Source: an uncultured Litoreibacter sp. | GTDB taxonomy: Bacteria; Pseudomonadota; Alphaproteobacteria; Rhodobacterales; Rhodobacteraceae | Direction: 5' to 3' | Length of the DNA: 64,000 bases | Assembly (NCBI GenBank): GCA_947501685.1 | Contig: CANMWQ010000003.1 | Location: forward strand, 186,001-250,000 | Part shown: positions 5,915 to 31,570 of the stretch, in pieces | Layout of the letters: each line of letters opens with the position of its first letter | Position numbering within the stretch: the stretch's first letter is position 1 | Program-made: the position numbers and the translations under genes | The notes under the pieces: generated by a model | What the model saw: only the letters and a program-made list of their open reading frames with translations | The model's database searches: none | What the model was told of the DNA's origin: nothing

Positions 5915-5941
5915 ACGGCACGAGACGGCAGGGTCAAGCGC

Positions 5942-6457: not shown

Positions 6458-6599
6458 AGCTGAGGGGCCTCTCGGGTCGTAGTATCGTCGCAGTTGCGCC
6501 ACCCTATAGGCGGCGTCAGGCCAGCGCCAGCCTATGCGCGCTTGAGACGCAGCAAAAAACGTGGCACCCACGGATGGACCACAGCTATTGGACGAAACT

Positions 6600-7586: not shown

Positions 7587-7706
7587 ACGATCATACCATA
7601 TCTAGCTGCTAATTGACGTGACACCGCAACTCAGTTGCAGTATTATTGTGTCAACGCACCGCGACAGCCGGGCGATTTGAGCAACACGAAAACAGGCGGA
7701 ACTTTT

Positions 7707-8279
7707 ATGGACAGAGCGATCTCACGCGTTTCACGGCGCAATTTTCTGGTCAGTGGCGCGGCACTTGGCGGGCTTGCGGCCTGCGGCAATGGCGTCAACA
7801 GCCAAGGCGGTGCCAAGCTCGACGCGCGCGTCGATCAGGCCTTCAACTTCATGTATCAAAACGTACCCGGCAGCCGCGATCTGGCTGGAAAGGCCGTAGG
7901 CGTGCTGATGATGCCGGTCATCACCAAGGCCGGGCTTTTCGGCCCCGGAGGCTCCTTCGGGCGCGGCGCGTTGCGCGTGGGTGGGGCGACGATCGACTAT
8001 TACTCCGCCACCACCGCGACTTTCGGCTTCCAGCTTGGCGCGCAGCAGTTCTCCAACGCGCTGTTCTTCATGACGGAAGATGCGCTCAGCGATTTCCGCC
8101 GTTCCCCCGGCTGGACCCTCGGGGCGGATGCGGAATATGCCGTGTCCAACGAAGCGGGCAATCTCGGGGTGGACACGACCACCGCGCTGTCGCCTGTCAT
8201 CGCGCTGATCTTCGGTCAAGCCGGTCTGATCGCGGGGGCCACCATCGAAGGGGCCAAATACAACCGGATTATTCCATAA
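7707..8279 (+). CDS. SYLF-domain (Ysc84-like) lipid-binding protein, putative Tat-exported lipoprotein
   Basis: SRRNFLVSGAALGGLAAC Tat motif plus lipobox; GVLMMPVITKAGLFGPGGSFGRGALR and SPVIALIFGQAGLIAGATIEGAKY typical of SYLF. Confidence 0.8.
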   Translation: MDRAISRVSRRNFLVSGAALGGLAACGNGVNSQGGAKLDARVDQAFNFMYQNVPGSRDLAGKAVGVLMMPVITKAGLFGPGGSFGRGALRVGGATIDYYSATTATFGFQLGAQQFSNALFFMTEDALSDFRRSPGWTLGADAEYAVSNEAGNLGVDTTTALSPVIALIFGQAGLIAGATIEGAKYNRIIP

Positions 8280-9742: not shown

Positions 9743-10618
9743 TTAGCGGTCCATCTTGCGCAGACGCTCAATCAGAGACGACGTATCCCAGCGCCCGCCG
9801 CCCAGTTTTTGCACGTCCTTGTAATATTGATCCACCACCGCTGTCACGGGCAGAGACGCGCCGTTTTCATCGGCCGTATCCAGACAAATCCCCAAATCCT
9901 TGCGCATCCAGTCCACCGCAAACCCGTGCTCAAATTCGCCGTCCAGCATGGTCTCATACCGGTTGGCCATCTGCCATGAGCCCGCGGCCCCTTGGCTGAT
10001 CACCTCAACCACCGCCTTGCCGTCAAGGCCCGCTTTCTCTGCAAAATGCAGCCCTTCCGACAGGCCCTGCACAAGCCCCGCAATGCAGATTTGGTTGACC
10101 ATCTTGGTCAACTGCCCCGCGCCGCTTTCGCCCAGCCGTTTGCAGGCTTTCGCATAGGCCGCCATGACAGGTTCCGCCCGCGCGTAAGCCCCCTCGTCGC
10201 CGCCGCACATGATGCCGAGCTGGCCGTTCTCCGCCCCCGCTTGGCCGCCAGAGACGGGCGCATCCACAAAGCTGATCTGGCCCGCATCCGCCGCGGCATA
10301 AAGCTCGCGCGTGACCTTGGCCGAGACCGTGGTGTGATCTACAAAAACCGAGCCCGCCTCCATCGCCCCAAGCGCCCCGTCATCACCGAGGCACACGCTG
10401 CGCAAATCATCGTCATTGCCCACGCAGGCCATCACAAATTCCGCGCCCTCAGCCGCCTCGCGCGGGGTTTTCGCCATCGTGCCGCCATGCGCGTCCACCC
10501 AAGCCTGCGCCTTGGCGGCGGTTCGGTTATAGACGCAAACCTCGTGGCCTGCTTTGACCAGATGCCCCGCCATCGGGTAGCCCATCACGCCCAACCCAAG
10601 AAAACTCACTTTTGCCAT
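9743..10618 (-). CDS. NAD(P)-dependent 3-hydroxyisobutyrate dehydrogenase-family oxidoreductase
   Basis: FLGLGVMGYPMAGHLVKAGHEVCVYNRT; DAPVSGGQAGAENGQL; GAGQLTKMVNQ. Confidence 0.87.
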   Translation of the reverse strand: MAKVSFLGLGVMGYPMAGHLVKAGHEVCVYNRTAAKAQAWVDAHGGTMAKTPREAAEGAEFVMACVGNDDDLRSVCLGDDGALGAMEAGSVFVDHTTVSAKVTRELYAAADAGQISFVDAPVSGGQAGAENGQLGIMCGGDEGAYARAEPVMAAYAKACKRLGESGAGQLTKMVNQICIAGLVQGLSEGLHFAEKAGLDGKAVVEVISQGAAGSWQMANRYETMLDGEFEHGFAVDWMRKDLGICLDTADENGASLPVTAVVDQYYKDVQKLGGGRWDTSSLIERLRKMDR

Positions 10619-10698
10619 GACGACACCCTGCTCATTGATTGAAATCCGCCCCGCAGGGATGATACATGGGCATCAAGGCGTCAAGAGCGGGAAATCCA

Positions 10699-13158
10699 AT
10701 GTCGGCAGTGTTCAAGTGGTCCTTCCGTCTGTTTTTGCTGCTCGCCACGCTCTGCGCGCTGACGCTTGGCGTGGTCTATTACCTCGCCTCGCGCTCGCTG
10801 CCTGATTACGACGCCAGCTTCACCGTCCCCGGCCTGTCCGGCGAGGTGGAGATCGTGCGCAACAATTCAGGCGTGCCGCATATCTTTGCGCAGGCCGACC
10901 GGGATGTGTTCTTTGGCCTCGGCTTTGCCCATGCCCAAGACCGTTTGTGGCAAATGACCATGCTGCGCCGCACCGCTCAGGGCCGCCTGTCAGAGCTGTT
11001 TGGCCCCCGCACTGTGCAAACCGACGAGCTGCTGCGCCGCCTCGATCTCTACGGCCACGCACAACGCTCTGTCGCTGCACAAGACGCCGAAACGCTGGCC
11101 ATGCTGGAGGCCTATGCCGACGGCGTCAACGCGTGGCTGCGCACGGTGAACGCGCAGGCTCTGGGGCGCGGCGCGCCGGAGTTTTTTCTGTTCTCGCCCG
11201 ATATTGCACCTTGGCAGCCCGCGGACAGCATCGCCGTGGTCAAGGTCATGGCGCTGCAACTCTCCGGCCATCTCTCGGAGGAGGTCATCCGCGCCCGCGC
11301 TTCCCTCCTCCTGCCGCCGGAACGCGTCGCAGATCTGGTGCCGGATGACCCGTCCAACGGCGTCGCTGCGCTTGACTATGCGGGGCTCTTCAAGGGGCAG
11401 TCCTTCCCGCAATTCGCTGAGACCACCCCGCGCGACCCGCTCAACCCCGTGCAGCCGCGCGCGCTCTCCGGTGCCTCCAACGCCTTCGCCGCCGCGCCCA
11501 TTCGGTCCGCCGCAGGCGGCACGCTCTTGGCCAATGACCCGCATCTGGGCCTCAGCGCGCCCTCGATCTGGTATCTTGCCCGACTGGAGCTGGAAACCGG
11601 CCCCGTCATTGGCGGCACCATCCCCGGCATGCCGGTCATTTTGACAGGGCGTGGGGCGCAAACCGGCTGGGGCCTGACCACGGCCTATGTCGACGATCAA
11701 GACCTCCATATCGAAAAGCTGAACCCCGACAATTCCAACGAATACGAGACCCCCGACGGGTTCAAACCCTTCCGCACAAGGCAGTCGATCATTCGCGTGG
11801 CCGATGCCGCGCCCGTCACGCTGACCCTGCGCTGGTCCGACAATGGCCCTGTTCTGCCCGGCAAGCATTTCAACCTCGCCGCCATCACGCCTGCGGGCCA
11901 TGTCACAGCACTCAACTGGACCGCGCTCAGCGATGAAAACACCTCGCTGCAAGCCGCGCTGAAAATCATGAAGGCGCAAGACATCCCCGCCATGATCGAG
12001 GCCAGCCGCGACTACGTGGCACCTGCGCAAAACCTGACCATGGCGGATGCAGAAAACATCGCGCTGAAGACCATTGGCCATATCCCTCGCCGCAGCCCCG
12101 CGCACCAGTCGCAGGGCCGCATCCCGTCGCCGGGCTGGCTCGCGCAAAACCGCTGGCAAGGTGTGATGCCCGATGCCTCCAACCCGCTGTTTGAGAACCC
12201 CAAGGGCGGCATATTGGGCAACACCAACAACAAGATGGTCGACCGCCCCTTCCCGAACCATGTCAGCCACACATATGGCGACACCCAGCGCGTGCAACGC
12301 TGGCGGCGCTTGATGCTCAATCGGCAGGTCCATACCCGCGACAGCTTCATCGAGGCGCAGCTTGATGACGTCTCCTTCACCGCCCGTGCGCTTTTGCCGC
12401 TGGTCGCCGCCGATCTGTGGTTCATCGGAGAAGCCGCCCCCGAGGGCACCCCCGCCCGCCAACGCCAGGTGGCGCTGGATTTGCTGGCCAGCTGGAATGG
12501 CGAGATGTCAGAGCACCTGCCCGAGCCGCTGATCTACGCCAGCTGGCTGCGCACGCTGCAACAGAGGCTGATCCGCGATGAGATTGGCCCTTTGGCGCAG
12601 GAATTCGGCCATCTCGAACCGCTCTTCATCGAGCGCGTTTTCCGCGATCTCGACGGCGCGTCGATCTGGTGCGACGTGGTGCAATCCGCAGCACCTGAGA
12701 CCTGCACCGACACCGCGCGGCAGGCGCTGGACGAGGCGTTGCTGACCCTGTCGGAGAAATACGGCCCCAATATCGAAAGCTGGCGCTGGGGCGACGCGCA
12801 TGAGGCCACGCATGACCATCAGGTGCTGGGCCAAGTTCCGGGGCTCAGCTGGTTTGTGAACATTCGCCAATCCACTTCGGGCGGCGACAACACGCTCCGC
12901 CGCGGCCGCACGCGCGGCACAGGGCCGGAGCCCTTCCGCAATGTTCATGCCGCAGGCTACAGAGGCGTCTATGACTTTGCCGATCCCGAAAGCTCGGTCT
13001 TCATCATGGCCACGGGCCAGTCCGGCCATCCCATCTCGCGCCACTATGACGATCTCGGCGTCCTCTGGCGGCGCGGCGAATATATCCCGATGACCCTCGA
13101 CCCTGCTCTGGCCCGCGCAGGCGCCGTAGGAACCAACACGCTCCTCCCCGCACCGTAA
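10699..13158 (+). CDS. Penicillin acylase-family Ntn-hydrolase, membrane anchored or exported
   Basis: N-terminal hydrophobic segment; GASNAFA catalytic Ser region; ANDPHLGLSAPSIWY; GRGAQTGWGLT. Confidence 0.88.
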   Translation: MSAVFKWSFRLFLLLATLCALTLGVVYYLASRSLPDYDASFTVPGLSGEVEIVRNNSGVPHIFAQADRDVFFGLGFAHAQDRLWQMTMLRRTAQGRLSELFGPRTVQTDELLRRLDLYGHAQRSVAAQDAETLAMLEAYADGVNAWLRTVNAQALGRGAPEFFLFSPDIAPWQPADSIAVVKVMALQLSGHLSEEVIRARASLLLPPERVADLVPDDPSNGVAALDYAGLFKGQSFPQFAETTPRDPLNPVQPRALSGASNAFAAAPIRSAAGGTLLANDPHLGLSAPSIWYLARLELETGPVIGGTIPGMPVILTGRGAQTGWGLTTAYVDDQDLHIEKLNPDNSNEYETPDGFKPFRTRQSIIRVADAAPVTLTLRWSDNGPVLPGKHFNLAAITPAGHVTALNWTALSDENTSLQAALKIMKAQDIPAMIEASRDYVAPAQNLTMADAENIALKTIGHIPRRSPAHQSQGRIPSPGWLAQNRWQGVMPDASNPLFENPKGGILGNTNNKMVDRPFPNHVSHTYGDTQRVQRWRRLMLNRQVHTRDSFIEAQLDDVSFTARALLPLVAADLWFIGEAAPEGTPARQRQVALDLLASWNGEMSEHLPEPLIYASWLRTLQQRLIRDEIGPLAQEFGHLEPLFIERVFRDLDGASIWCDVVQSAAPETCTDTARQALDEALLTLSEKYGPNIESWRWGDAHEATHDHQVLGQVPGLSWFVNIRQSTSGGDNTLRRGRTRGTGPEPFRNVHAAGYRGVYDFADPESSVFIMATGQSGHPISRHYDDLGVLWRRGEYIPMTLDPALARAGAVGTNTLLPAP

Positions 13159-18522: not shown

Positions 18523-19152
18523 TCACGTCGCGTCGTTCTGGTTTTCAGGTCTGGCAGCTTGAAAAGCGGGCAACGCAAGGCAGCGGGTCTCAATCTCCAG
18601 CAGACGCGGATAATCGGTGAGATCAACGCTCCAACGATGCGCGTTGTAAAGCTGCGCGACCAGGCAAATATCGGCAAGGTCGGGCGTCTCGCCAAAGCTG
18701 AAGGGCGTGTCGCGCGCAATCAGAGCGTCATAGGCGGCAAAGCCTTGGCGCATCCAATCCTGCATCCACGCAAGACCTGACGCGTCGTCCGACAGGCTTT
18801 TGACTTTCTTGACGACCTTAAGATTGTTGACCGGATGCACATCGGCGGCAAAGACCATAGCGGCGGCCAAAACATGCGCCCGACGCGTGAGATCGCCTTG
18901 TGGGAGCAATGCAGGCTCAGGAACCAAATGATCGAGATAGTCCAATATCGCCATGGATTGCGTCAGTACGGTTCCGTCATATGTGACAAGTGTCGGCACG
19001 CCCTTGATCGGGTTAAGCGCCACATAGTCACTCGACGCCTGTTCCCCTTTGACCAGATCAACGGGGATGCTCTCGTAGGCAATGCCCTTGAGGTTCAGGG
19101 CAATCCGCACCCGGTAGGAGGTCGTCGAACGCCAATAAGTATATAGTCTCAT
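18523..19152 (-). CDS. maiA: Maleylacetoacetate isomerase / zeta-class glutathione S-transferase
   Basis: YTYWRSTTSYRVRIALNLKGI (SSxxxRVRIALxLKG zeta-GST signature); LNPIKGVPTLV. Confidence 0.88.
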   Translation of the reverse strand: MRLYTYWRSTTSYRVRIALNLKGIAYESIPVDLVKGEQASSDYVALNPIKGVPTLVTYDGTVLTQSMAILDYLDHLVPEPALLPQGDLTRRAHVLAAAMVFAADVHPVNNLKVVKKVKSLSDDASGLAWMQDWMRQGFAAYDALIARDTPFSFGETPDLADICLVAQLYNAHRWSVDLTDYPRLLEIETRCLALPAFQAARPENQNDAT

Positions 19153-19241: not shown

Positions 19242-20753
19242 TCACAAGGCGATCAACGCGGATTTCATATGGGTGACCTGATCAACCGCGCGCAAAGATC
19301 TGTCATACCCATACCCGGATTGTTTGACGCCGCCCATCGGGATCGTGTGATCTGTCCCGCCATAGGTGTTGACGTGAACAACGCCCGCTTGAATATCTCG
19401 GACCATTCGATGTGCGCGGGACAGGTCGGACGTCCAGACACCCGCAGCGAGACCAAGATCAGATGCATTGGCCAGCGCCAGCGCCTCTTCCTCCGTCTCG
19501 AAACTTGTCACGGTCAGAACCGGGCCAAACACCTCCTCGCGGAACAGGGCATCCGTGGGCGCAACAGTATCGAATACCGTGGGCGCCATGTAGAAGCCCT
19601 CCGCGTGCAAGGCATGGCCGCCCGTCACGAGCGTTGCGCCGCTTGATTTGGCTTTCTCCACATGTGACAGGTTCAGCGCCAGTTGCGCTTCGGAATGCAC
19701 CGCGCCCACGTCATTGGCAGGATCAAGCGGGTCGCCGATCTTGAGCGCCTCCGCGATGCTCACGATCCGCTCCAAAAGCTGATCTTTGATGGAAGACGCC
19801 ACGATCAGCCGCGCGCCGGCAACGCAGGTCTGGCCAGAGTTGCGGAAGATCGCGCCAACGGCCGCCTTGGCCGCCACATCCAGATCCGGCGTATCTGCAA
19901 ACACGATATTGGGAGATTTGCCCCCCAGCTCCAGATAGACAGGTTTCATATTCGACGCAGCTGACGCGGTCAGCAAATGACGCCCCGTCCCGCCAGAGCC
20001 CGTGAACAACAGCGCGTCTACATCCATATGTCCGGCAAGGGCTGCGCCCGCCTCATGCCCATGTCCGGTGACCACGTTCAGCACGCCGGGTGGCAGGCCA
20101 GCCTCCACCGCAAGTTCGGCCATACGGATGAGGGTCAGTGACGCGCTTTCGGAGGGTTTCAGGACCACCGAATTGCCCATCGCAATGGCAGGCGCGATTT
20201 TCCACGCGCCGATCATCATCGGAAAATTCCAAGGGACCAAGGCGGCCACAACGCCCAGCGGTTCGCGGTGAACAAGGCACAGCTTGTCCTCTGTTGTGGG
20301 AATAACCTCGCCGCCGACCTTGTCGATGGCCTCAGCGTAATAACGGATCGTTTGCGCGGCGGAGCCGGGCTCGGCTTTAAGCGCCATTCCGATCTCGGTG
20401 CCATTGTCGCGTACGCCAAGGACAGCAAGCGGCAACGCCTCGGCCTCGATCAGCTGTGCCCATCTGTTCATAACATCGCGGCGCTTGGAGGGTGCCATCC
20501 GCCGCCAGCGCCCATCGGTAAAGGCCTGCCTCGCCGACGCGACTGCCATATCAATGTCTTCCGCGCGACTCGCTGAGATCTCTGTAAACACCTGCCCGTC
20601 GATGGGTGACACGACATTGATTCGCTCTTTCGTTGGGCTCTGTTTGCCCTCAACGAAGTTGTGAGCCGGATTTACTTGCATGGCACGGATCCGGTTGATT
20701 TCGTTTATATCCAATGGGTTGGCCTCTCTGATCAAGTGTTTGTGATCGCTCAA
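19242..20753 (-). CDS. NAD(P)-dependent aldehyde dehydrogenase, PuuC-like
   Basis: VPWNFPMMIGAWKIAPA, YLELGGKSPNIVF, FRNSGQTCVAGARL. Confidence 0.93.
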   Translation of the reverse strand: MSDHKHLIREANPLDINEINRIRAMQVNPAHNFVEGKQSPTKERINVVSPIDGQVFTEISASRAEDIDMAVASARQAFTDGRWRRMAPSKRRDVMNRWAQLIEAEALPLAVLGVRDNGTEIGMALKAEPGSAAQTIRYYAEAIDKVGGEVIPTTEDKLCLVHREPLGVVAALVPWNFPMMIGAWKIAPAIAMGNSVVLKPSESASLTLIRMAELAVEAGLPPGVLNVVTGHGHEAGAALAGHMDVDALLFTGSGGTGRHLLTASAASNMKPVYLELGGKSPNIVFADTPDLDVAAKAAVGAIFRNSGQTCVAGARLIVASSIKDQLLERIVSIAEALKIGDPLDPANDVGAVHSEAQLALNLSHVEKAKSSGATLVTGGHALHAEGFYMAPTVFDTVAPTDALFREEVFGPVLTVTSFETEEEALALANASDLGLAAGVWTSDLSRAHRMVRDIQAGVVHVNTYGGTDHTIPMGGVKQSGYGYDRSLRAVDQVTHMKSALIAL

Positions 20754-20760
20754 GTGAATA

Positions 20761-20805
20761 ATTTCGTTGCAAATGAAATGATTTTCGTTTCATTTGCAAC
20801 GAAAT
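20761..20805. promoter_or_regulatory. Perfect 18-bp inverted repeat, likely operator for the cluster MarR regulator
   Basis: ATTTCGTTGCAAATGAAA-tgattttcg-TTTCATTTGCAACGAAAT in the divergent intergenic region; each arm is itself a near-palindrome TTTC-N9-GAAA. Confidence 0.75.
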
Positions 20806-20908
20806 AATATTTGCATCTACCGCAGGGAGGCGCGGTCCATGACACCGACACCACAATTTACCTTTCTCGACGCCCACCGTCGCCCGAACAATAAGTGAGC
20901 TTGATTCA

Positions 20909-21979
20909 ATGACACAGGCGACGACTATGGCAACAGTTTTCAAAATTCAGGCGGGCGGCGCTGAAGAGTTCCTCGGCGGCAAAGGTTTGCGCTTGGGCGA
21001 GCTGGTTTCCATGGGCTGCTCCGTCCCCAAAGGCTTCACCGTCACCGCAGGTGTGCTCGACGCTGTGATCGCAGCCACCGACCTGAACACTGTGATCGAC
21101 GCCGCTTTGGCCGAGGTCGATCCTAAAGACGACGCATCCTGCGACGCCGCCGCCCTGAAAATTTCCGACGCGATTTGCAGCACGCAGCTTCCCGCAGAGA
21201 TCGAAGCCGACATCACGACCGCCTATGAGCAGCTCTGCTACGAGACACGCACCCTCACCTTGCAGGTGGCGGTGCGCTCTTCTGCGGTTGGGGAAGACGC
21301 GAAAGACGCAAGCTTTGCCGGTCAGTTTGAAACCTATCTTGGCGTGTCCGGCACGGATGCTGTCATCGCGCATATCAAACGGGTCTGGGCCAGCCTCTAT
21401 AATGCCCGCGCCATCCAATACCGTGCGCGCAACGGCCTTGGCCTGCATGGCCAAATGGCGGTTGTGGTGCTGGAACTTGTCAATGCCCGCGCGGCTGGCG
21501 TGGCCTTCTCCGCAGACCCGCTGACCGGAAAACGCGACCGTGTCGTGATTGAAGGCAATTGGGGGTTCGGCGAGTCGGTCGTGCAAGGTGTCGTGACGCC
21601 GGACCGCGCGACGGTTGATAAGGCCGATCTGCGGGTGCTGGATTATGCGGTCGCCGAGAAAGTCATCGTGTCGGTCTATGAGCCCGACCAGCGCCTTGTC
21701 GTCGAAATCCCGATGCCCGCGCTCTTCCGCTCCGAGCCCGTCCTGAATGACGAAGAGATCACCGCCATTGCAAAAGCCGTGCGCGAGGTCGAGGAAACTG
21801 CAGGCTACCCGATTGATGTGGAATGGGTCATCCCGCTGCACCGCCAGGCCGGTGACGCCCCTGTTCTGGTGCAGGTGCGCCCGATCACAACCCTCCCCGA
21901 GGAAGAAAAAGCGCCCGCCGCGGCGTGGAACCCCGCTGCCTATGCCAGCAAATACGCGTTTGGACAGAAGAATGGCTGA
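20909..21979 (+). CDS. PEP/pyruvate-binding (PPDK N-terminal ATP-grasp-type) dikinase subunit, stand-alone
   Basis: GGKGLRLGELVSMG, VAVRSSAVGEDAKDASFAGQFETYLGV, VEWVI..PVLVQVRPITTL; 356 aa with no swivel or TIM-barrel domain. Confidence 0.9.
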   Translation: MTQATTMATVFKIQAGGAEEFLGGKGLRLGELVSMGCSVPKGFTVTAGVLDAVIAATDLNTVIDAALAEVDPKDDASCDAAALKISDAICSTQLPAEIEADITTAYEQLCYETRTLTLQVAVRSSAVGEDAKDASFAGQFETYLGVSGTDAVIAHIKRVWASLYNARAIQYRARNGLGLHGQMAVVVLELVNARAAGVAFSADPLTGKRDRVVIEGNWGFGESVVQGVVTPDRATVDKADLRVLDYAVAEKVIVSVYEPDQRLVVEIPMPALFRSEPVLNDEEITAIAKAVREVEETAGYPIDVEWVIPLHRQAGDAPVLVQVRPITTLPEEEKAPAAAWNPAAYASKYAFGQKNG

Positions 21980-23582
21980 GCGGGTTTTTGATTATGTTGT
22001 CGTTGGGGCGGGCTCTGCCGGGGCCACCTTGGCCGCGCGTTTGTCGGAAGACCCATCCGTCAGCGTCTGCCTGATCGAGGCCGGGCCAAAGGATCAACAT
22101 CCCGCCATCGCAATTCCGCTGGGTTTGATCTGGCTCTCCAAGCACCCAAAGCTGAACTGGCTTTACAGCTCCACCACGCAAGAGGCCCTGGGCGGGCGCA
22201 AAATCTCCGTGCCTCGCGGCAAGGTGTTGGGCGGCTCGTCTGCCATCAACGGAATGATCTATATTCGCGGTCAGGCCGAGGATTACGACGCATGGGCCGC
22301 GCAGGGCTGCACGGGCTGGGGTTTTGAAGATGTGCTGCCCTATTTCAAGAAATCCGAGACCAACACCGCTGTCGATGTTGACGCAGAGTTTCACGGCACC
22401 GCAGGCCCGCTGACCGTAGAGCGTTTGAAAGACCCAAGCCCGATGGATGCGGTTTTCGTTGAGGCGGCCAATGAGCTGCAATTCCGCGCCAACTCCGATT
22501 TCAACGGTGAAACGCAGGAAGGCGTCGGCGTCTATCAGGTCACACAGGATGCAGGTCGGCGCATGAGCAGCGCACGGGCGTTCCTGACCGGAGCACGCAA
22601 GCGCGCGAACCTGACAATCCTGACGGAGACCTCCGTTGAAACATTAGAAGTCGAGAATTCCCGCGTGACGGCCGTCTCCCTGACAGGGGACGCGTCGGAC
22701 AAGCTGCGCGCCAATCTCGAAGTGATCCTCTGCGCCGGGGCCATCGGCTCCCCGGAGATTTTGCTCAAATCGGGCATTGGCCCGGCCGCGCAACTGCAAG
22801 CCGCAGGTCTACGGGTCGTGCATGATCTGCCCGGCGTTGGCCAGAACCTGCAAGAGCATGTCGATTGCATGGTGATCTGCAAAACCAAATCTTCCGCACC
22901 TTACGGCATCTCGCTGGCCGCCTTGCCGCGTCTTGGGCTCGACGGCATCAAATATCTGGTGGCGCGGCGCGGAATGCTGGCGTCGAACATGGTCGAGGCC
23001 GGTGGCTTTGTCCGCTCCGCCCCCGATGTTGAGACGCCAGATCTGCAATTCCATTTTATCCCCGGTCGCAAAAGCCATCGTGGCCGGATGATCGAATGGG
23101 GTCATGGCGTGTCGCTGCATGCCTGCGTGTTGCGCCCCAAAAGCCGTGGGTCGGTCAGCCTCGACGACCACGCCGCGTTGCAAATTGATCTGGGCCTGCT
23201 GACCCATGAAGACGATCTCCAACTGCTGACAAAAGGCGTAAAGCTGGCCCGCGATATCCTGCACCAGTCGCCGTTTGCGCCTTACGGGCTGGAAGAAATT
23301 CTGCCGGGCCAAGACACGGCTGACGCAGAGCTGAAAAGCTTCGTGCGCGCCAATGCCCGCACCGTCTATCACCCCGTCGGCACCTGCGCGATGGGCCATG
23401 GGCCAGAGGCCGTCACGGCCCCTGATCTCAAAGTCCACGGCCTGTCCAACCTGCGCGTCGTCGATGCCTCCATCATGCCCACCATCATTAGCGGCAACAC
23501 CAATGCACCTACAATCATGATCGCTGAAAAAGCAGCCGATCTTATTGCGAAAAACCGTACCCAATTCTCATCTGCGGCCTAG
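21972..23582 (+). CDS. GMC-family FAD oxidoreductase (alcohol/choline dehydrogenase-like)
   Basis: DYVVVGAGSAGATLAARLSEDPSVSVCLIEAG; GKVLGGSSAINGMIYIRGQAEDYD; C-terminal VVDASIMPTIISGNTNAPTIMIAEKAAD; start overlaps previous gene by 8 bp. Confidence 0.95.
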   Translation: MAERVFDYVVVGAGSAGATLAARLSEDPSVSVCLIEAGPKDQHPAIAIPLGLIWLSKHPKLNWLYSSTTQEALGGRKISVPRGKVLGGSSAINGMIYIRGQAEDYDAWAAQGCTGWGFEDVLPYFKKSETNTAVDVDAEFHGTAGPLTVERLKDPSPMDAVFVEAANELQFRANSDFNGETQEGVGVYQVTQDAGRRMSSARAFLTGARKRANLTILTETSVETLEVENSRVTAVSLTGDASDKLRANLEVILCAGAIGSPEILLKSGIGPAAQLQAAGLRVVHDLPGVGQNLQEHVDCMVICKTKSSAPYGISLAALPRLGLDGIKYLVARRGMLASNMVEAGGFVRSAPDVETPDLQFHFIPGRKSHRGRMIEWGHGVSLHACVLRPKSRGSVSLDDHAALQIDLGLLTHEDDLQLLTKGVKLARDILHQSPFAPYGLEEILPGQDTADAELKSFVRANARTVYHPVGTCAMGHGPEAVTAPDLKVHGLSNLRVVDASIMPTIISGNTNAPTIMIAEKAADLIAKNRTQFSSAA

Positions 23583-23613
23583 GGCCTGCGACGACATCAA
23601 GAAGGAACACCCC

Positions 23614-23925
23614 ATGAAAAAGATTTTTACCCCCCTCGCCCCCATGATCATCGGCCTGATTGCTCTGCCAACGGCCAGCTTCTCGGAAAGCGGCGCCCTG
23701 TCGCAGGCCTGTGCAATCAACGTGGGATGGGTCGGAACACCAGCCATCGTACAGAGCGGCTCTGACGCCCTGGCCTCCGCCGACAGTTCATTGGCAACGC
23801 GCTTGGTCGCAGCCGCCTCCGCCGACATGGCACTGGAGCAAGAGGGCGAGGCACAGCCACAACGCATAGCAGCCAAGGCCTGCGGCGTCAGCGCCGCCGA
23901 CCCCTACCAGCTTGCACAAAACTAA
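23614..23925 (+). CDS. Small exported protein of unknown function (103 aa)
   Basis: ATG with RBS AAGGA; N-terminal signal peptide MKKIFTPLAPMIIGLIALPTASF; mature part about 80 aa with two Cys. Confidence 0.65.
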   Translation: MKKIFTPLAPMIIGLIALPTASFSESGALSQACAINVGWVGTPAIVQSGSDALASADSSLATRLVAAASADMALEQEGEAQPQRIAAKACGVSAADPYQLAQN

Positions 23926-24018
23926 CGGCAACACGCAATCTCATCTGTCGCAGCCATAAGGCACGACATCTATCTGCGGCCTCAGGCCGAACGCTAAAAA
24001 AACGGGAGGAACAGTTTC

Positions 24019-25260
24019 ATGAAGATATACTTTGCAACATTCGCACTCATCGCCCCCATCGCGGTGGTCGCCGCTATGGTGCCAACAGTTGGCCTTGCCG
24101 ATGGCCATGCGGCACCGGCTGTCTGTGGGACGGGCGAGGCCGCAACCGGTGAGCCCATCCGCATCGGCGCCATTGTCGGCCAGACCGGACCTGCTGACTT
24201 TTCGTCAGCGGCCAAATCCGCTGCAGCCGTGTTTGCCTGTGTGAACGCAAATGGCGGCATTGATGGCCGCCCGATCGAATATCTCATCGAAGACGACGCG
24301 TGGAACCCCGAAAACGCCGCCAACGCGGCCGCGAAACTGGTGACGGATCAGGGCGTAGTGGCCATGGCCGGCTCAACCTCCTTTGTGGAATGCGGCACCA
24401 ATGCGGGCTTCTATAAAGACAACGGCGTCGGCGTCATTGCCGGGGTCGGCGTGCCCCGCGAATGCTTCTTTTCGGAAAACATCGCGCCGATGAATATGGG
24501 CCCACGCCTGTCCACTCTGGGGGCCGCGATTGACGCCTACGAAAACAACGGCGCGCGCAGCTTTGTCTGCATGGCGCCAAATATCCCAAATGTAGGCGGT
24601 TGGTTCTGCGAAGGCCTTGCCGCATGGGGCGCTGACAAGGGCGTGACAGTCGCCAATGTGTTGCACGACCCCGCAACGCTTGATCCGACATCTCTGGTGC
24701 TGCAAGCCATGTCCTCTGACCCTGACGCCATTCTGGTGGCCGAACCGGCCCCGGCGGCGATCCCGATTTTCAATGCCGCCGAAGATCAGGACCTGCTCGA
24801 CGAGGCGCTCTGGCTGGGCCCCACCTCCATCTATGACACCGCCTTCCCGGACGCTGTGGGCGACTATTGGGACGGAGCCGTGCGTGCGCATATCGAGTTC
24901 AACGCGCTCGACAGTGACGGCGAGGACAATCAGGCGTGGCTGAGCATCATGGAAAGCCACGGCCAATCCGGTGATCCGCTCGATAGCTTCAGCCAGGCGG
25001 GCTATCTGTCGGCCAAAGCCATCCTCGGCGTGTTGCGCGACATTGACGGCGACATCACACGCGATGCGGTCCTGGCCGGGCTGAAGAGCATGACGCCGAT
25101 GCAAAGCGATCTGCTATGCGGTGAGTGGGCCTTTGGAGAGGGCGCGCGTCACAACGCAAACCAATCCGGTCGGATTGCGACGGTCAAGGATGGCGCATGG
25201 GAAGTGACCCGTGAGTGCTTCCGCTCTGACGATCCTGAACTTGCTGACATCGCTCAGTAA
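24019..25260 (+). CDS. Branched-chain amino-acid-type ABC transporter substrate-binding protein (Peripla_BP_6)
   Basis: signal peptide; EPIRIGAIVGQTGPADFSSAAKSAAAVFACVNANGGIDGRPIEYLIEDDAWNPENAANAAAKLV. Confidence 0.93.
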   Translation: MKIYFATFALIAPIAVVAAMVPTVGLADGHAAPAVCGTGEAATGEPIRIGAIVGQTGPADFSSAAKSAAAVFACVNANGGIDGRPIEYLIEDDAWNPENAANAAAKLVTDQGVVAMAGSTSFVECGTNAGFYKDNGVGVIAGVGVPRECFFSENIAPMNMGPRLSTLGAAIDAYENNGARSFVCMAPNIPNVGGWFCEGLAAWGADKGVTVANVLHDPATLDPTSLVLQAMSSDPDAILVAEPAPAAIPIFNAAEDQDLLDEALWLGPTSIYDTAFPDAVGDYWDGAVRAHIEFNALDSDGEDNQAWLSIMESHGQSGDPLDSFSQAGYLSAKAILGVLRDIDGDITRDAVLAGLKSMTPMQSDLLCGEWAFGEGARHNANQSGRIATVKDGAWEVTRECFRSDDPELADIAQ

Positions 25261-25280
25261 TCTGACCCCTGAGGACGACA

Positions 25281-26150
25281 ATGCCCGATCTTACTCCCTT
25301 TCTTGTCACAGGCTTTGCTCTCGGCGCGATCTATGCGCTGGCAGGCCTTGGGATTGTCGTCCTCTATCGGGCAACCGGAGAGCTCAACTTCGCCTTCGGC
25401 GCGCTCGCCGCTGCCTCCGCCATGGTCACATGGCAAGCCCATGAATGGGGCCTTCACATTTGGCTGGCCTGTTTCGTCGGCATTGTGACCGCCACCCTCA
25501 TCTCCGCAGCCTACGGCGCGCTTGTCTCCGCCAAGGTCGCGCATCGAACGGATGTGATCAAAGCGGTTGCGACGCTTGGCCTGGCGCTGATCATCTTGGG
25601 CCTCGCCTATTGGATCTGGGGCGACTCGCCCCGCCGTCTGCGCCTGCCGCTGCGCGCCCTGAACACCGAACTGTTCGGCGTCCGGGTCACCGGGGCGCGG
25701 GTGGTTGCCATCGGCTTTTGTCTGGTCGCGGCCATTGGGATCACGGCCCTGCTGACAAAAACCCGCATGGGGCTGCAAATGCGCGCCCTTGCTGACACGC
25801 GTGATCTGTCCGCCCTGATCGGCATTGATGTGGAGCGCGTCACGCTGCTGGCATGGGTCGGCTCGGGCGTTCTTGCCGGGGTCGCGGGTATTCTCTTGGG
25901 CACCCTCGTGCGCCTTGATCCCGGTGTGTTGACCTTCATGGTCGTCCCCTCATTGGCCGCCGCGATCCTCGGAGGGCTTCGCTCGCTCTGGCTCACGCTG
26001 CTGGGCGGTTTGGCCATCGGTATGCTTGAGGCTGTGGCCACACCGTTCCAAACCATTGCGCCCTACCGCTCACTGGCGCCGTTCATCGTGGCAATCGCGG
26101 TCCTGATGGTGCTGCCCGCTGCCGCCTTCCGGTCGGAAAGGGCAAGCTGA
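25281..26150 (+). CDS. Branched-chain-type ABC transporter permease (LivH family)
   Basis: FALGAIYALAGLGIVVLYRATGELNFAFGA; MGLQMRALADTRDLSALIGID. Confidence 0.93.
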   Translation: MPDLTPFLVTGFALGAIYALAGLGIVVLYRATGELNFAFGALAAASAMVTWQAHEWGLHIWLACFVGIVTATLISAAYGALVSAKVAHRTDVIKAVATLGLALIILGLAYWIWGDSPRRLRLPLRALNTELFGVRVTGARVVAIGFCLVAAIGITALLTKTRMGLQMRALADTRDLSALIGIDVERVTLLAWVGSGVLAGVAGILLGTLVRLDPGVLTFMVVPSLAAAILGGLRSLWLTLLGGLAIGMLEAVATPFQTIAPYRSLAPFIVAIAVLMVLPAAAFRSERAS

Positions 26151-27196
26151 TGACCGCCACACATATCCAAGACGTCACCCAGAGCGGCGGCCCGACACAG
26201 CCGGGTTTTGTCAAACGCATGTGGCGCGACAATGCCGGCACGATCATCACGCTCGGCCTGCTGATCACGATTGTCCCGTTCCTGCCGGTCTACTGGATCC
26301 GCGTCTTCACCTCGATGATGGCGGTCGCCGCTGCCGCGCAAGGGGTGGCGATCCTGCATGAGCGGATAGGCCATGTATCTCTCGCGGGCATCGGCATGAT
26401 GGCTGTGGGGGGATGGATCGGGCTGCGCGTCGCGCATGGGCTTGGCCTGCCCTTTGAGATCAATCTGCTTGTCGCCGCCATTGGGGCGGGCGCAATCGGC
26501 GCCTTGCTGGGCCTGCCGGGCATTCGCCATAAGGGTCTGATCTTCGCTCTGGTGACGCTGATGTTTGCCGCTGGCCTGCATGTCGTGGTCAGCTCCGTCG
26601 GCTTCCCCGACGGCGGCAGCGGCTTCTGGGGCCGCGTCTCTGGCAGTCAGGAACGCGCCTTCATGGCCCGCCCTGCCGTCGCGCAGTCGGACCACGCCTA
26701 TTTCATCTACACGACCCTCATTGTCACGCTGGCCTTTGGCCTCACCTATGCCATCCTGAAATCCAGCGCTGGCCGTGCCTGGGCGATGATCCGGGCCGGG
26801 GATGCTGTCGCCAAATCCGCAGGCGTCAACATGAAAGCCGCGCGGTTCAAGGCCTTCTTCCTCGCCGGAGCCCTGAGCGGCATTGGCGGCTGCCTGATGG
26901 CCGGGTCCATCGGTCAACTTGACGGGCGCAGCTTTGACGCGCTGCAATCGCTGCTGCTTTACGGGCTGGTCATCGTCGCGGGGCCGTGGTCGCTGGCGGC
27001 TGCTTTGATTGCGGCATTCCTCTACCGTGTGTTCCCTGCCCTGCTCGACAGCTGGGGCGTTGATGGCGACATTGCGATGATCATTTTCGGGATCGCGCTG
27101 ATCCATGCGATTGTGAACGCGCCGCGTGGCATCGCGGGCCAGTTGCAGGACCTCAGCGCCCTAATCTCCTCGAAATTCGGAGGGGCCGCGAGATGA
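26150..27196 (+). CDS. Branched-chain-type ABC transporter permease (LivM family)
   Basis: LHERIGHVSLAGIGMMAVGGWIG, GRAWAMIRAGDAVAKSAGVNMKAARFKAFFLAGALSGIGG; start overlaps livH stop (TGATG). Confidence 0.93.
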   Translation: MTATHIQDVTQSGGPTQPGFVKRMWRDNAGTIITLGLLITIVPFLPVYWIRVFTSMMAVAAAAQGVAILHERIGHVSLAGIGMMAVGGWIGLRVAHGLGLPFEINLLVAAIGAGAIGALLGLPGIRHKGLIFALVTLMFAAGLHVVVSSVGFPDGGSGFWGRVSGSQERAFMARPAVAQSDHAYFIYTTLIVTLAFGLTYAILKSSAGRAWAMIRAGDAVAKSAGVNMKAARFKAFFLAGALSGIGGCLMAGSIGQLDGRSFDALQSLLLYGLVIVAGPWSLAAALIAAFLYRVFPALLDSWGVDGDIAMIIFGIALIHAIVNAPRGIAGQLQDLSALISSKFGGAAR

Positions 27197-27912
27197 TCGA
27201 GCTCAAAGACATCACCGTCTCCTTTGGTGGGGTCAAGCCTATCTCAGGTCTGACCGTCACGATGGGTGGCCGCATCCAAGGCCTGATCGGGCCAAACGGG
27301 GCGGGCAAAACGACCTTGCTGAATGTGCTGTCGGGTTTCGTGACGCCGGTCAGCGGCTCCATCACGCTGTTTGGCGAGAATTTCGGCCCGGTCCGCGCCG
27401 AGGCGCGTTTGGAAAACGGCATCACTCGGTCTTTCCAGACCCCGCAAGTGGCAGCTGACCTGACGGCGGCTGACAATATTCGCGTCAGCTTCGACAGCCT
27501 TGGCCTGTCACGGGCGGACGCCCATACGCAACTGACGGAGGTGCTGGCACTGACCGGGCTTACCGCGCAGGCAGAGGTCATGGCGGGCGCGCTTGATGGG
27601 TATAGTTTGCGGATGGTCGAAATCGCCCGCTGCCTTGCCGCAAAACCGCGCCTGATCATGCTCGATGAGCCCGCCGCCGGGCTCGCCGCAGATGAGCGCG
27701 CGCGGTTGATGACGCTTCTCAAACGCCTCCCCGATATGGGCGCGCAGGTGTTGATCATCGACCATGATTTTGACCTTATCGGTGATCTTTGCGATCAGGT
27801 TGCGGTTTTGGATTTCGGCAAGCTTGTCGCCAGCGGGCCAACCCAAGAGACCTTGGCCAACCCCAAAGTCCGCGCCGCCTATCTTGGCGAAGACGAGGAG
27901 GACGCCGCATGA
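27193..27912 (+). CDS. Branched-chain-type ABC transporter ATP-binding protein (LivG family)
   Basis: Walker A GPNGAGKTTL; Walker B LIMLDEPAAGL; 4-bp overlap with preceding gene. Confidence 0.95.
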   Translation: MIELKDITVSFGGVKPISGLTVTMGGRIQGLIGPNGAGKTTLLNVLSGFVTPVSGSITLFGENFGPVRAEARLENGITRSFQTPQVAADLTAADNIRVSFDSLGLSRADAHTQLTEVLALTGLTAQAEVMAGALDGYSLRMVEIARCLAAKPRLIMLDEPAAGLAADERARLMTLLKRLPDMGAQVLIIDHDFDLIGDLCDQVAVLDFGKLVASGPTQETLANPKVRAAYLGEDEEDAA

Positions 27913-28631
27913 GCCTGACACTCTCCATCAACAATATCTCGGTTGAGCGCGGCGCGCAGCATGTGCTCGACGATGTGACGCTCAGCGTGAAACAGGGCGA
28001 AATCCTTGCCCTTCTGGGCCCCAATGGCGCGGGCAAAAGCACGCTTGTGTCAACCATCGCGGGCGAGTTGAAACCCGCCTCGGGTCAGGTACTGCTGGGC
28101 GACATGTCTCTGTTGGGCCGCAAGCCGCAACATATTCGCCAGCAAGGCGTCGCGGCAGTTCCTGAAGGCCACCGAGTCCTCAAAACACTGTCGGTCGAGG
28201 ATAATTTGAACGCCGCTGCCAGCTTTTTGCCCCGCAAGGACGCCGGCAATGCTTACGCCCACGCGCTCGATATCTTTCCCGAGCTCAAGGAAAAGCTCGC
28301 GCTGCCCGCCGGGCATCTCTCCGGGGGGCAGCAACAGATGCTGTCACTGGCACAAGCGCTGATGACCAAGCCGAAATTTGTGCTGGCCGACGAGATGTCC
28401 TTCGGCCTTGCCCCCGTCATCGTGCGTCGCCTGATCCCGCTTTTGAAGCGTGTGGCCGAGCAAGGCGTCGGCATTTTGCTGATCGAACAATACACCGCCA
28501 TGGCGCTCGAAATCGCCAATCATGTCGCCGTGCTGAGCCGGGGGCGCGTGATCGCCCAGGATGATGTGGCCCGGTTCCGCGACAACCCCGAAGCGGTGCG
28601 TGATCTTTATATGGACAAGGACGTGGCCTGA
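27909..28631 (+). CDS. Branched-chain-type ABC transporter ATP-binding protein (LivF family)
   Basis: Walker A GPNGAGKST; LSGGQQQMLSLAQALM; 4-bp overlap with livG-like gene. Confidence 0.95.
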   Translation: MSLTLSINNISVERGAQHVLDDVTLSVKQGEILALLGPNGAGKSTLVSTIAGELKPASGQVLLGDMSLLGRKPQHIRQQGVAAVPEGHRVLKTLSVEDNLNAAASFLPRKDAGNAYAHALDIFPELKEKLALPAGHLSGGQQQMLSLAQALMTKPKFVLADEMSFGLAPVIVRRLIPLLKRVAEQGVGILLIEQYTAMALEIANHVAVLSRGRVIAQDDVARFRDNPEAVRDLYMDKDVA

Positions 28632-28653
28632 GGCCGCAGAAGGAGAGATAAGA

Positions 28654-30375
28654 ATGTCGGATATCATTTCCATCGACGAGTTCGTCAATGACCCGGGCTA
28701 TCCCGGTTTCGAAGACCGGTTCTTCAACAGCCCGTGGATCGCGGAGCCTGTGTCCAAATTCCGGGCCGAAGACGTCGAACGCTTCTGGTTCCTTGATTTC
28801 CACTGGCCCAAAGGCACCACCCCGCTGGGGATGAGCTTTTTCGAAGATGGCTACGCCTTCGCCACCCAGCAGGCTGCCACAACCCTGCCGCTGCCGCCCT
28901 CCAACGGTCTGGCCGTGCGCTTCGGCGGCGTGCATGTTTTTGGCGGTGAAAGCCCGCTCAAAAGCGCGTGGGAGCCGGGGTTTCGCGGCATGCGCATCGG
29001 CAATGAGCTGGGCGGCATTCTTGAGCGGTTCAACGAGACATGGGCCAAGCGCGAGGCAGAGCTGACCGCAGGGTTCTCCCATTTCCGCGACTATGACACG
29101 GGCAGTGCCAGCATGGCCGAGATGGCGCAATTTGCGCAAGACGCCCGCGCGTTTCAGAAATTCGCATGGGTCACGCATTTCGGGCTGATGTACCCTCTGC
29201 TGGCCAATTACGCGGGGTTCTATGGTCTGTGCAACGAGCTGAAAATCGCCCCCGGCGAGATCGCGAAATTCCTGCAAGGCGAGAAGACCAAGATCATCGA
29301 AACCGATGTGGCGCTTTGGGGGTTGACCAAACGCGCAACCGAGCTGGGCGTGGCAAACCATATTGTAGGCACTCCGGAACAGATGCGCGCCGGGCTCGCA
29401 ACCGCCGGTCCCAACGGGGCCACATGGCTGGGCGAGTATGACGCGTTCATAAACCAATGGGGCTGGCGCTGCGCGGGCATCGCGGATCCGCTTGAAAAGC
29501 CTTGGATCGAGGATCAACAACAGGTCGTGGGCCTGCTGGAAACCTTCCTGCAAAAGGAAGATGCGCATGATTTTGACGGGGGCCTGACCGCCGCTGCGCA
29601 GGAACGCGATGCCGCTGTGGCCGCGGCCCGCGCGAAGCTGACCCAATCGGAACAAGGTGCCTTTGATCAGGCCTTGGCTGGCTGCCGGATGGCCAATTTC
29701 AGCTGGTGGAACGAAGACCACAACGTTGTCATCGACATGCAGGCCACCATCCCGATGCGCCGTGCCGCCACGGCCATTGCCGAAAAAGCCGGGGCCGACA
29801 GCGCTGATGACGGATGCTTCTTGTTCCACACGGAACTGGTGGAGCTGGCCGAAGGCAAAACCAACTGGAAGGCGTTGAAACCCGTCGTTCAGGATCGCAA
29901 AGACTATTACGAGCACTGGAACAGCCGCCGCAAAGCCATGCCAAAGGTGGTCGGCACCGTGCCCGACAGCGTGCAGGATCCCATCCTCATCGAGATCGTC
30001 GGCCTGCATGACAAATTCCTGGCCGCGCAGCGGGGCGAAATCGGCTCCGAACTGGCGGGCATTCCGGCCTCCAAAGGCGAAGTTACCGGCGTGGCGCGCG
30101 TGATGCATAACGCAGACGAGCTGCATTTGCTGAACCCCGGCGACATTCTGGTCTGTGAGGGCACCGCGCCCTCCTGGACGCCTGCATTTACCAAAATTGG
30201 TGGCTGCGTATGCGACAATGGAGGCACGCTCACCCATGCCTCGATCGTCAGCCGGGAATACGGATTGCCCTGCGTGGTCGGAACGGGCGTTGCCACATCC
30301 GCGATCGAAACCGGCGATATTGTCACCGTCAACGGCACCGATGGTGTCGTTCATATTCAAAAGAAGGCCGCATAA
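28654..30375 (+). CDS. PEP-utilising-enzyme mobile (swivelling phospho-His) subunit with large N-terminal acceptor-type region
   Basis: C-terminal VCEGTAPSWTPAFTKIGGCVCDNGGTLTHASIVSREYGLPCVVGTGVATSAIETGDIVTVNGTDGVV with catalytic His codon at 30235-30237; RBS AGGAGA; no PEP/pyruvate TIM barrel. Confidence 0.9.
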   Translation: MSDIISIDEFVNDPGYPGFEDRFFNSPWIAEPVSKFRAEDVERFWFLDFHWPKGTTPLGMSFFEDGYAFATQQAATTLPLPPSNGLAVRFGGVHVFGGESPLKSAWEPGFRGMRIGNELGGILERFNETWAKREAELTAGFSHFRDYDTGSASMAEMAQFAQDARAFQKFAWVTHFGLMYPLLANYAGFYGLCNELKIAPGEIAKFLQGEKTKIIETDVALWGLTKRATELGVANHIVGTPEQMRAGLATAGPNGATWLGEYDAFINQWGWRCAGIADPLEKPWIEDQQQVVGLLETFLQKEDAHDFDGGLTAAAQERDAAVAAARAKLTQSEQGAFDQALAGCRMANFSWWNEDHNVVIDMQATIPMRRAATAIAEKAGADSADDGCFLFHTELVELAEGKTNWKALKPVVQDRKDYYEHWNSRRKAMPKVVGTVPDSVQDPILIEIVGLHDKFLAAQRGEIGSELAGIPASKGEVTGVARVMHNADELHLLNPGDILVCEGTAPSWTPAFTKIGGCVCDNGGTLTHASIVSREYGLPCVVGTGVATSAIETGDIVTVNGTDGVVHIQKKAA

Positions 30376-31100
30376 TGTCAGACACAAAATCCCTCCTTCT
30401 GCTCGACTTTGGTGCCGTTGTTTCACGCACCATCTTTGAAACGCACAGCCATACAGAACGTGTTCTGGGGCTTGCCGCAGGCAGCCTCACATGGCTTGGT
30501 CCGATTGATCCAAGCAGTGATGCGCTGTGGCGCGACATGCTCGCGGACAAGATCAGCGAGCGCAATTATTGGGAAATCCGGGCCGACGAAGTAGGCCAGA
30601 TGGTCGGCGAGAGCGGTTGGTCCCCTGCCGTCCTGTTGCGCAAGGCGCGCGAAGGCATGACAGCCGATGACATCACCCGCCCGGAGGCCATCGCGCTTGC
30701 GCGTGCGGCGCGACAAGGCGGGAAACGTGTCGGCATCCTGTCAAACGAGCTTGCCCTGTTCTTTGGTGAAAACTGGCGCAGTGAATTGCCGTTCTTTGCC
30801 TTGATGGACGGCGTCGTTGACGCCTCCGATGGAGGCCCGATGAAGCCTGCGCCCGAGGCCTATCAACGCGGGCTCGATACGTTTGGGGCAACGGCCGATC
30901 AGGTTGTTTTTGTTGACGACCAACCCCGAAACGTCACAGGTGCAGAAGAAATGGGCATCCTGTCTGTTGCATTTGATCTTTCCGATCCCACCGGGTCGTT
31001 CCGCAGCGCCGCGCAAGCCCTTGGCGTTCAGGATATCTATGATGATGAACTGTCACATGTGACGACCGCGGATGCTCCCGTAAAATACTCCACTGGATAA
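30375..31100 (+). CDS. HAD-superfamily hydrolase (subfamily IA-like)
   Basis: LLLLDFGAVVSRT motif I, GILSNELALF motif II, KPAPEAYQRGL motif III, VVFVDDQPRNVTGAEEMG motif IV; TAATG overlap with upstream gene. Confidence 0.85.
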   Translation: MSDTKSLLLLDFGAVVSRTIFETHSHTERVLGLAAGSLTWLGPIDPSSDALWRDMLADKISERNYWEIRADEVGQMVGESGWSPAVLLRKAREGMTADDITRPEAIALARAARQGGKRVGILSNELALFFGENWRSELPFFALMDGVVDASDGGPMKPAPEAYQRGLDTFGATADQVVFVDDQPRNVTGAEEMGILSVAFDLSDPTGSFRSAAQALGVQDIYDDELSHVTTADAPVKYSTG

Positions 31101-31114
31101 CAAGAGGAAACACT

Positions 31115-31570
31115 ATGCGTGATGACCCAGAAGACGATGTGACCGTCCGGCTCGACGAATTTCTTCCGTTCCAGCTCGCGGTCGTTGCGAATAAAGTAAG
31201 CCAAACCATCGCCAGGATCATCGAAGAGGAATTCAAGCTCCACATTCCTGAATGGCGTATCCTGGCCACGCTTTTGTATCATTCGCCCGTCTCTTCGCAG
31301 ATGTTGGTGCAACAAACGGCGATGGACCCGGCCCGTGTCAGCCGCGCGCAAACACGTCTGGCGGATCTCGGTTTGATTGATGTGCAACAAGACCCGGACG
31401 ATAAGCGCCGGGTGCTGATCAAGCTGACACAGCGCGGCAGCGAGATCGTCTCCGAGACGATTCCACGCGCAATCGAGGTCGAGAAAGAGATTTTTGGATC
31501 CCTCTCAGACGGGGAACGCTCTTGTTTAGAAACCACTCTCGAAAAACTTTTCAAGGTGTTGGGCGACTGA
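31115..31570 (+). CDS. MarR-family transcriptional regulator
   Basis: EWRILATLLYHSPVSSQMLVQQTAMDPARVSRAQTRLADLGLIDVQQDPDDKRRVLIKLTQRG winged-helix. Confidence 0.93.
   Translation: MRDDPEDDVTVRLDEFLPFQLAVVANKVSQTIARIIEEEFKLHIPEWRILATLLYHSPVSSQMLVQQTAMDPARVSRAQTRLADLGLIDVQQDPDDKRRVLIKLTQRGSEIVSETIPRAIEVEKEIFGSLSDGERSCLETTLEKLFKVLGD

Follow-up and report, generated by a model that had tools for sequence, protein, structure and literature searches.

A split dikinase within a 13-kb insertion

The window analyzed here (the whole stretch of 64,000 nucleotides, positions 186,001 to 250,000 of contig CANMWQ010000003.1 from an uncultured Litoreibacter sp.) carries two genes predicted to encode a split dikinase, one for a stand-alone ATP-grasp subunit and the other for an acceptor-binding subunit that ends in a phosphohistidine swivel domain (the swivel subunit). 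Both belong to a module of genes that exactly fills the 13 kb inserted between ntrX and trkA (Table 1), and whose (+) strand operon runs from the ATP-grasp gene through a GMC-family oxidoreductase, a five-gene HAAT-type ABC importer, the swivel gene and a HAD hydrolase to a MarR-family regulator. The cluster is larger than the original prediction, a note drawn up from the sequence without database searches, had it: HAD and MarR genes lie 3' of the swivel gene, and aldehyde dehydrogenase (ALDH) and maleylacetoacetate isomerase (MaiA) genes lie divergently upstream. Gene content, family membership and the insertion itself were established by computation.

The only Pfam domain in the 356-residue ATP-grasp product is PPDK_N, spanning residues 20 to 337, as expected of the stand-alone PPDK_N subunit of about 40 kDa that marks two-component small-molecule dikinases. 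Its ATP-site motifs are intact (GGKG at 23, RSS at 123, ED at 129, SFAGQ at 135 and VQVRP at 321), and it matches phosphoenolpyruvate (PEP) synthases, rifampin phosphotransferase (RPH) and 9GOJ, the structure of HpeI (PMC12167813). The swivel subunit (573 residues) carries the PEP-utilizers domain at residues 494 to 564 and no second Pfam family, and its catalytic motif reads CDNGGTLTHAS with His528. Profile scans of the two subunits and of the remaining cluster genes found no PEP/pyruvate C-terminal barrel. These results bear out the original prediction of a nucleotide-binding domain (PF01326) as the sole content of the first protein, a mobile PEP-utilizer domain (PF00391) with His528 in the second and no TIM barrel in or near either; the loss of ATP-site or histidine residues that would have spoken against it is not seen.

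The same prediction had left some 450 residues upstream of the swivel domain without a match, and here it did not hold. NCBIfam PRK08296 models cover residues 184 to 600 of the swivel subunit (604-residue numbering) with E values as low as 6e-60, RPH and prodigiosin-ligase profile models also match it, and RPH 5FBS aligns with residues 255 to 568 (E = 3e-25). An AlphaFold model built from 43 orthologues (mean pLDDT 92, pTM 0.91) has RPH entries as its only full-length matches in the PDB, with E values down to 2.8e-18, and PPDK and enzyme I entries match it only in part. The subunit aligns end to end with a Cre-type protein (25% identity) and a Hpe-type protein (27%), and the invariant residues common to the three include F44-W45-F46 and H50, within motifs of the D..RFWF.D..HW/FP type. 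Judged from profiles and the model, the N-terminal region of about 450 residues is predicted to be the acceptor domain of the RPH/HpeH family. Because an RPH/HpeH-like match runs along the whole second protein, as already published for HpeH (PMC12167813), we classify the two genes as encoding a putative two-component small-molecule dikinase.

Family placement

Searches with the swivel subunit recovered 65 related loci, nearly all with full-length products, at 33 to 88% identity; orthologues of the window subunit range from 41 to 88%. In a tree of 38 rows, from which Pps and Pas sequences are absent, the window subunit groups with 26 rows in all (support 92/92) and falls outside the Cre/Hpe-type group (100/100), so that no grouping with Hpe-type kinases was found; the deep root is unsure because of four long branches. 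The published motif around the catalytic histidine, T/S-xx-GG-xxx-H, has Thr or Ser at its first position (PMC12167813). The window protein retains GG...H with His528 and has Cys520 at that first position, which is Thr in the Cre-type locus L098; Cys520 is invariant in 43 orthologues and marks the clade. A plasmid collection, the source of the Cre- and Hpe-type reference loci, held no close orthologue (best identity about 27%). Sequence comparison places the window dikinase on a separate, uncharacterized branch of a known kind of enzyme. A literature search found no paper on this module.

Two loci elsewhere in the wider family deserve mention. A Pseudonocardiaceae locus (L047) carries two split dikinases a few kilobases apart (5224 to 8276 and 10001 to 12837), one of the present clade and one of Cre type, the latter being the copy entered in the tree. 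A plasmid of Thermomicrobium roseum (L148) carries a distant split dikinase amid xanthine-dehydrogenase-type, FAA-hydrolase and cyclase genes, which suggests yet another substrate class.

A probable phosphatase paired with the dikinase

The HAD product has YihX phosphatase as its best PDB match, followed by the phosphatase domains of epoxide hydrolases. Across 37 rows, the nucleophile D11, the motif III lysine K157 and the motif IV acidic pair D181 and D182 show conservation of at least 90%. As in YihX, Gly13 replaces the usual second Asp of motif I. An orthologue lies near the swivel gene at 37 of the 64 to 65 loci, in scans that usually covered 10 kb on each side, and at 36 of those 37 the distance is at most 2.6 kb. 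This pairing makes the HAD protein a likely candidate for the matching aryl-phosphate phosphatase of the dikinase.

The module and its distribution

Table 1. Features of the insertion, in window coordinates
Feature	Position	Strand	Evidence or remark
Maleylacetoacetate isomerase (MaiA, zeta-class GST), first gene within the insertion	18523..19152	-	TIGR01262, 258.5 bits (cutoff 171)
Aldehyde dehydrogenase, divergent from the dikinase operon	19242..20753	-	Aldedh 2e-162
24-nt inverted repeat, divergent promoter region	20758..20808		Putative MarR operator
Dikinase subunit 1, stand-alone ATP-grasp domain, HpeI/CreI/PpsB-like	20909..21979	+	PF01326 1e-94
GMC-family FAD alcohol dehydrogenase/oxidase, choline dehydrogenase-like; overlaps 3' end of ATP-grasp gene	21972..23582	+	GMC_oxred_N 7e-50, GMC_oxred_C 7e-35
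HAAT-type ABC importer, substrate-binding protein	24019..25260	+	Peripla_BP_6 7.5e-55
HAAT importer permease 1	25281..26150	+	BPD_transp_2 1e-29
HAAT importer permease 2	26150..27196	+	BPD_transp_2 1e-18
HAAT importer ATPase, LivG type	27193..27912	+	ABC_tran 2e-21, BCA_ABC_TP_C
HAAT importer ATPase, LivF type	27909..28631	+	ABC_tran 1e-30; scanned as longer open reading frame 27789-28631
Dikinase subunit 2, predicted acceptor-binding and phospho-His swivel domain (His528), HpeH/CreH/PpsA-like	28654..30375	+	PF00391 7e-23; PRK08296 6e-60; AlphaFold model
HAD hydrolase, YihX-like, putative aryl-phosphate phosphatase	30375..31100	+	Hydrolase 8e-11
MarR-family regulator, last gene within the insertion	31115..31570	+	MarR 7e-10

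Near-identical gene order is found in Oceaniradius (L033) and in another member of the Rhodobacteraceae (L034), where all operon proteins are 58 to 88% identical to those of the window, including the HAAT substrate-binding protein (77 to 80%) and, at equivalent places, ALDH (62 to 70%) and MarR (63 to 68%). The half-site of the inverted repeat, TTGCAAATGRAAT, occurs twice in the window against 0.14 occurrences expected, and once each in L034 and L033, between the same two divergent genes; the repeat may thus be the operator of the MarR regulator. The nearest solved relatives of the GMC protein are choline dehydrogenase, a chloramphenicol-inactivating oxidoreductase and aryl-alcohol/hydroxymethylfurfural oxidases. 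Among the insertion genes, profile scans found no P450, ferredoxin or ferredoxin reductase, or HD-type phosphohydrolase. The statement in the original prediction that neither a biotin-dependent nor a UbiD-like carboxylase lies nearby proved right for the cluster: HpeCBA is missing from the insertion, as is any UbiD-like carboxylase, for which no genome-wide search was made. The sole genomic match to the Hpe-type carboxyltransferase (30% identity) lies within a 1152-residue reading frame resembling pyruvate carboxylase. Between the GMC and binding-protein genes lies a 103-residue reading frame with a signal-peptide-like start (23614-23925); tblastn against L033 and L034 gave no match to it that passed the filters, and we leave it out of the module.

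Eleven genomes of the same genus gave a match, and in every one of them ntrX lies directly next to trkA. The GC content of the insertion is not distinct (0.604, compared with 0.627 and 0.599) and therefore does not indicate a donor. The HAAT binding protein was found at E < 1e-100 in only 3 of 397 genomes of the family, and 7 of 398 sampled Pseudomonadota encode a swivel subunit broadly of this type. The module is intact and apparently mobile.

Genomic links to ring cleavage

The MaiA gene in the insertion is the only recognizable copy in the genome, the next best match having 34% identity. The genome's own hmgA-fahA operon (L134, G000:C6) encodes HmgA, FahA, a metallo-beta-lactamase-fold protein and a monooxygenase and is without maiA, which in four congeners lies between hmgA and fahA. 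In a relative (L131), a divergent operon beside the module encodes ALDH, HmgA, MaiA and FahA, then the same metallo-beta-lactamase-fold protein and monooxygenase; the latter, a FAD enzyme of 555 residues (PRK08132, MhpA-like), is similar in type and position to MhaA, the 3-hydroxyphenylacetate 6-hydroxylase described beside hmgABC (PMC3053370). In genome G212 (L132, L135), genes for ALDH, GMC, a HAAT binding protein and permease and a FeaR-like regulator adjoin hmgA-maiA-fahA, without a dikinase; this cluster may be an equivalent of the module that works without phosphorylation. From the L131 operon, the sole MaiA copy, the G212 cluster and the MhaA-like monooxygenase, we infer that the module may deliver hydroxyphenylacetate or homogentisate.

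Many orthologues of the window dikinase adjoin genes of aromatic meta-cleavage. Counted by homology across the 65 loci, the neighbors include the ATP-grasp gene (60), IclR (45), Rieske (36), FAA-type hydratase/decarboxylase (24), aldolase (24), catechol 2,3-dioxygenase type (16), MetE-like (11) and diiron hydroxylase (9) genes. At L041, the NCBIfam cutoffs are exceeded by catechol 2,3-dioxygenase and hydroxymuconic-semialdehyde dehydrogenase and narrowly missed by a hydratase/decarboxylase pair. A MetE-like (Meth_synt_2) protein of about 385 residues, weakly similar to solved methionine synthases, recurs beside the dikinase at gammaproteobacterial and actinobacterial loci (L041, 12627-13940, and others). 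Three mycobacterial orthologues (L046, L049, L050) adjoin genes for 2-oxoacid-dehydrogenase-type E1, E2 and E3, and two of these loci (L049, L050) also have diiron monooxygenase genes.

Proposed function and alternatives

The linked HAD, GMC, ALDH, HAAT and MaiA genes, together with the homogentisate operon of L131, suggest that an aromatic compound is channelled to homogentisate. We propose that the HAAT transporter imports the aromatic compound or its precursor, and that the ATP-grasp subunit would take the beta-phosphate from ATP and load it onto His528 of the swivel subunit. The RPH-like acceptor domain would bind the aromatic compound, probably a phenol, for the swivel domain to phosphorylate at its hydroxyl group, leaving AMP and Pi. 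The GMC and aldehyde dehydrogenases could then convert a side-chain alcohol to the acid and the HAD phosphatase could take the phosphate off, the order of oxidation and dephosphorylation being a guess. The resulting hydroxyphenylacetate would be hydroxylated and cleaved by the homogentisate (tyrosine-type) pathway, for which the module supplies MaiA, so that the whole would form a self-contained catabolic unit under MarR control. For this overall explanation, transient phosphorylation of an aromatic during side-chain oxidation with routing to homogentisate, gene content and homology suggest a probability of about 0.55. Its parts differ in strength. By analogy with characterized homologues, in which the beta-phosphate of ATP reaches the acceptor via a histidine (PMC12167813), the phosphotransfer chemistry is very probably as proposed, and an aromatic acceptor is probable too; the chances of routing to homogentisate are about even, and a hydroxyphenylethanol-type compound as the substrate is doubtful.

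Several observations weigh against this explanation. GMC and HAAT families also handle non-aromatic substrates, and we know of no characterized member of the window dikinase's clade. Mycobacterial orthologues in diiron-monooxygenase clusters often lack the HAD gene. The Oceaniradius module does not lie beside homogentisate genes, and its upstream neighborhood holds no ring-cleavage gene. The G212 cluster pairs GMC, ALDH and HAAT with hmg genes without a dikinase, so phosphorylation is not required for such a route. A distant relative, PasAB, phosphorylates the nitrogen of aniline (PMC7500099), and the acceptor atom therefore need not be oxygen.

This last point can be extended into an alternative in which the acceptor is an aromatic amine rather than a phenol, N-phosphorylated as by the phenylphosphoamidate synthase of Desulfatiglans anilini. 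PasAB is a characterized two-component dikinase acting on aniline whose alpha-subunit His512 (PMC7500099) lies near His528 in position, compared with His569 in Pps, and the catechol meta-cleavage and Rieske oxygenase genes beside many orthologues could follow an activated aniline. We nevertheless consider an amine improbable, since the window module has no carboxylase, amine-processing or amidase gene, the homogentisate linkage suggests an oxygenated ring, and PasAB accepts phenol too (PMC7500099). Alternatively, the substrate could be phenolic and the homogentisate link coincidental, MaiA having been acquired by chance and the product going elsewhere, for example to catechol or gentisate. Actinobacterial and gammaproteobacterial orthologues do feed catechol 2,3-dioxygenase pathways, and the module of L033 has no hmg genes nearby, but coincidence is unlikely given linkage in two lineages (the complete hmg operon beside the module of L131 and, in the window, the genome's only recognizable MaiA), and given the parallel GMC-ALDH-HAAT set beside hmg genes in G212.

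The closest fold being that of RPH, the pair might instead detoxify a toxic or antibiotic-like aromatic, as RPH does rifampin; a chloramphenicol-inactivating oxidoreductase is among the relatives of the GMC protein, and MarR regulators often control detoxification. An importer, a phosphatase that undoes the modification and a ring-cleavage isomerase in one insertion fit catabolism better, and we regard this role as very unlikely. A split PEP synthase acting on pyruvate, to which the similarity of the ATP-grasp subunit to PEP synthases (its most similar proteins) might point, has next to no chance of being right: neither protein nor the cluster has a PEP/pyruvate barrel, the acceptor domain folds like RPH, and we rejected this candidate on domain content. 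A non-pyruvate acceptor, as suggested in the original prediction, is probable.

The clade might represent an undescribed aerobic aromatic route, in which a temporary phosphate on the ring substituent, GMC/ALDH oxidation of the side chain of the phosphorylated intermediate and a dedicated HAD precede homogentisate entry; in other phyla the kinase-phosphatase pair would work alongside Rieske, MetE-like or diiron enzymes in the meta-cleavage of catechols. We advance this broader proposal only tentatively. The module is of interest for its transient-phosphate logic and for its new partner in ring cleavage. Since the pairing of kinase and phosphatase is conserved and the mobile module is complete, from importer and oxidoreductases to regulator and putative operator, transient phosphorylation is open to direct test, and a function would be assigned to proteins whose best profile matches are now named "hypothetical protein" (PRK08296) or phosphoenolpyruvate synthase.

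Comparison with known systems

Kinship of the split, barrel-less dikinase with phenylphosphate synthase, HpeHI and RPH, as originally predicted, is supported by our analysis. So is the expectation that downstream chemistry would differ from those systems: in place of a biotin-dependent or UbiD-like carboxylase, GMC, ALDH, HAD, HAAT and MaiA genes are linked to the dikinase. PEP synthase and PPDK have ATP-grasp and swivel domains in common with the window proteins but also the PEP/pyruvate barrel that these lack. RPH (5FBT, 5HV1) resembles the second subunit in fold over its whole length and shares the three-domain logic, but is one fused chain with 18 to 20% identity in a resistance context, whereas the window system is split and in a catabolic context. 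PpsAB phenylphosphate synthase of Thauera and PasAB phenylphosphoamidate synthase of Desulfatiglans are likewise two-component aromatic dikinases with a conserved histidine; they are set apart, without their sequences in the tree, by the window module's lack of a UbiD-like carboxylase and its aerobic ring-cleavage context.

The hydroxyphenylethanone dikinase HpeHI of Rhodococcus rhodochrous GD02 (PMC12167813, PMC9618137) and the Hpe-type locus L099 share with the window two subunits with an equal division of domains, the RPH-like acceptor domain, the GG...H swivel motif and a HAD phosphatase in the pathway. They differ in identity (about 27% to the L099 subunit), in clade and in the HpeCBA-type carboxylase that the window lacks; the HAD of the window comes from another family, with no match at 1e-12 in L099, and Cys520 stands where Thr or Ser is reported for the motif. 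We rejected the Hpe pathway for the module on the grounds of clade and of the missing dedicated carboxylase. Membership of the Cre pathway was rejected as well, since P450, ferredoxin and HD-type genes are missing and the clade differs: the P450-linked locus of Rhodococcus ruber (L098), taken here to represent the 4-cresol dikinase CreHI, uses dikinase, P450, ferredoxin, short-chain dehydrogenase/reductase, ALDH and HD-domain protein, whereas the window module has GMC, HAD and ABC importer, and the subunits are 25% identical. In both, an aromatic dikinase would be followed by side-chain oxidation through alcohol and aldehyde dehydrogenases and by a phosphohydrolase, and CreHI with L098 is retained as the closest known pathway logic to that of the window module.

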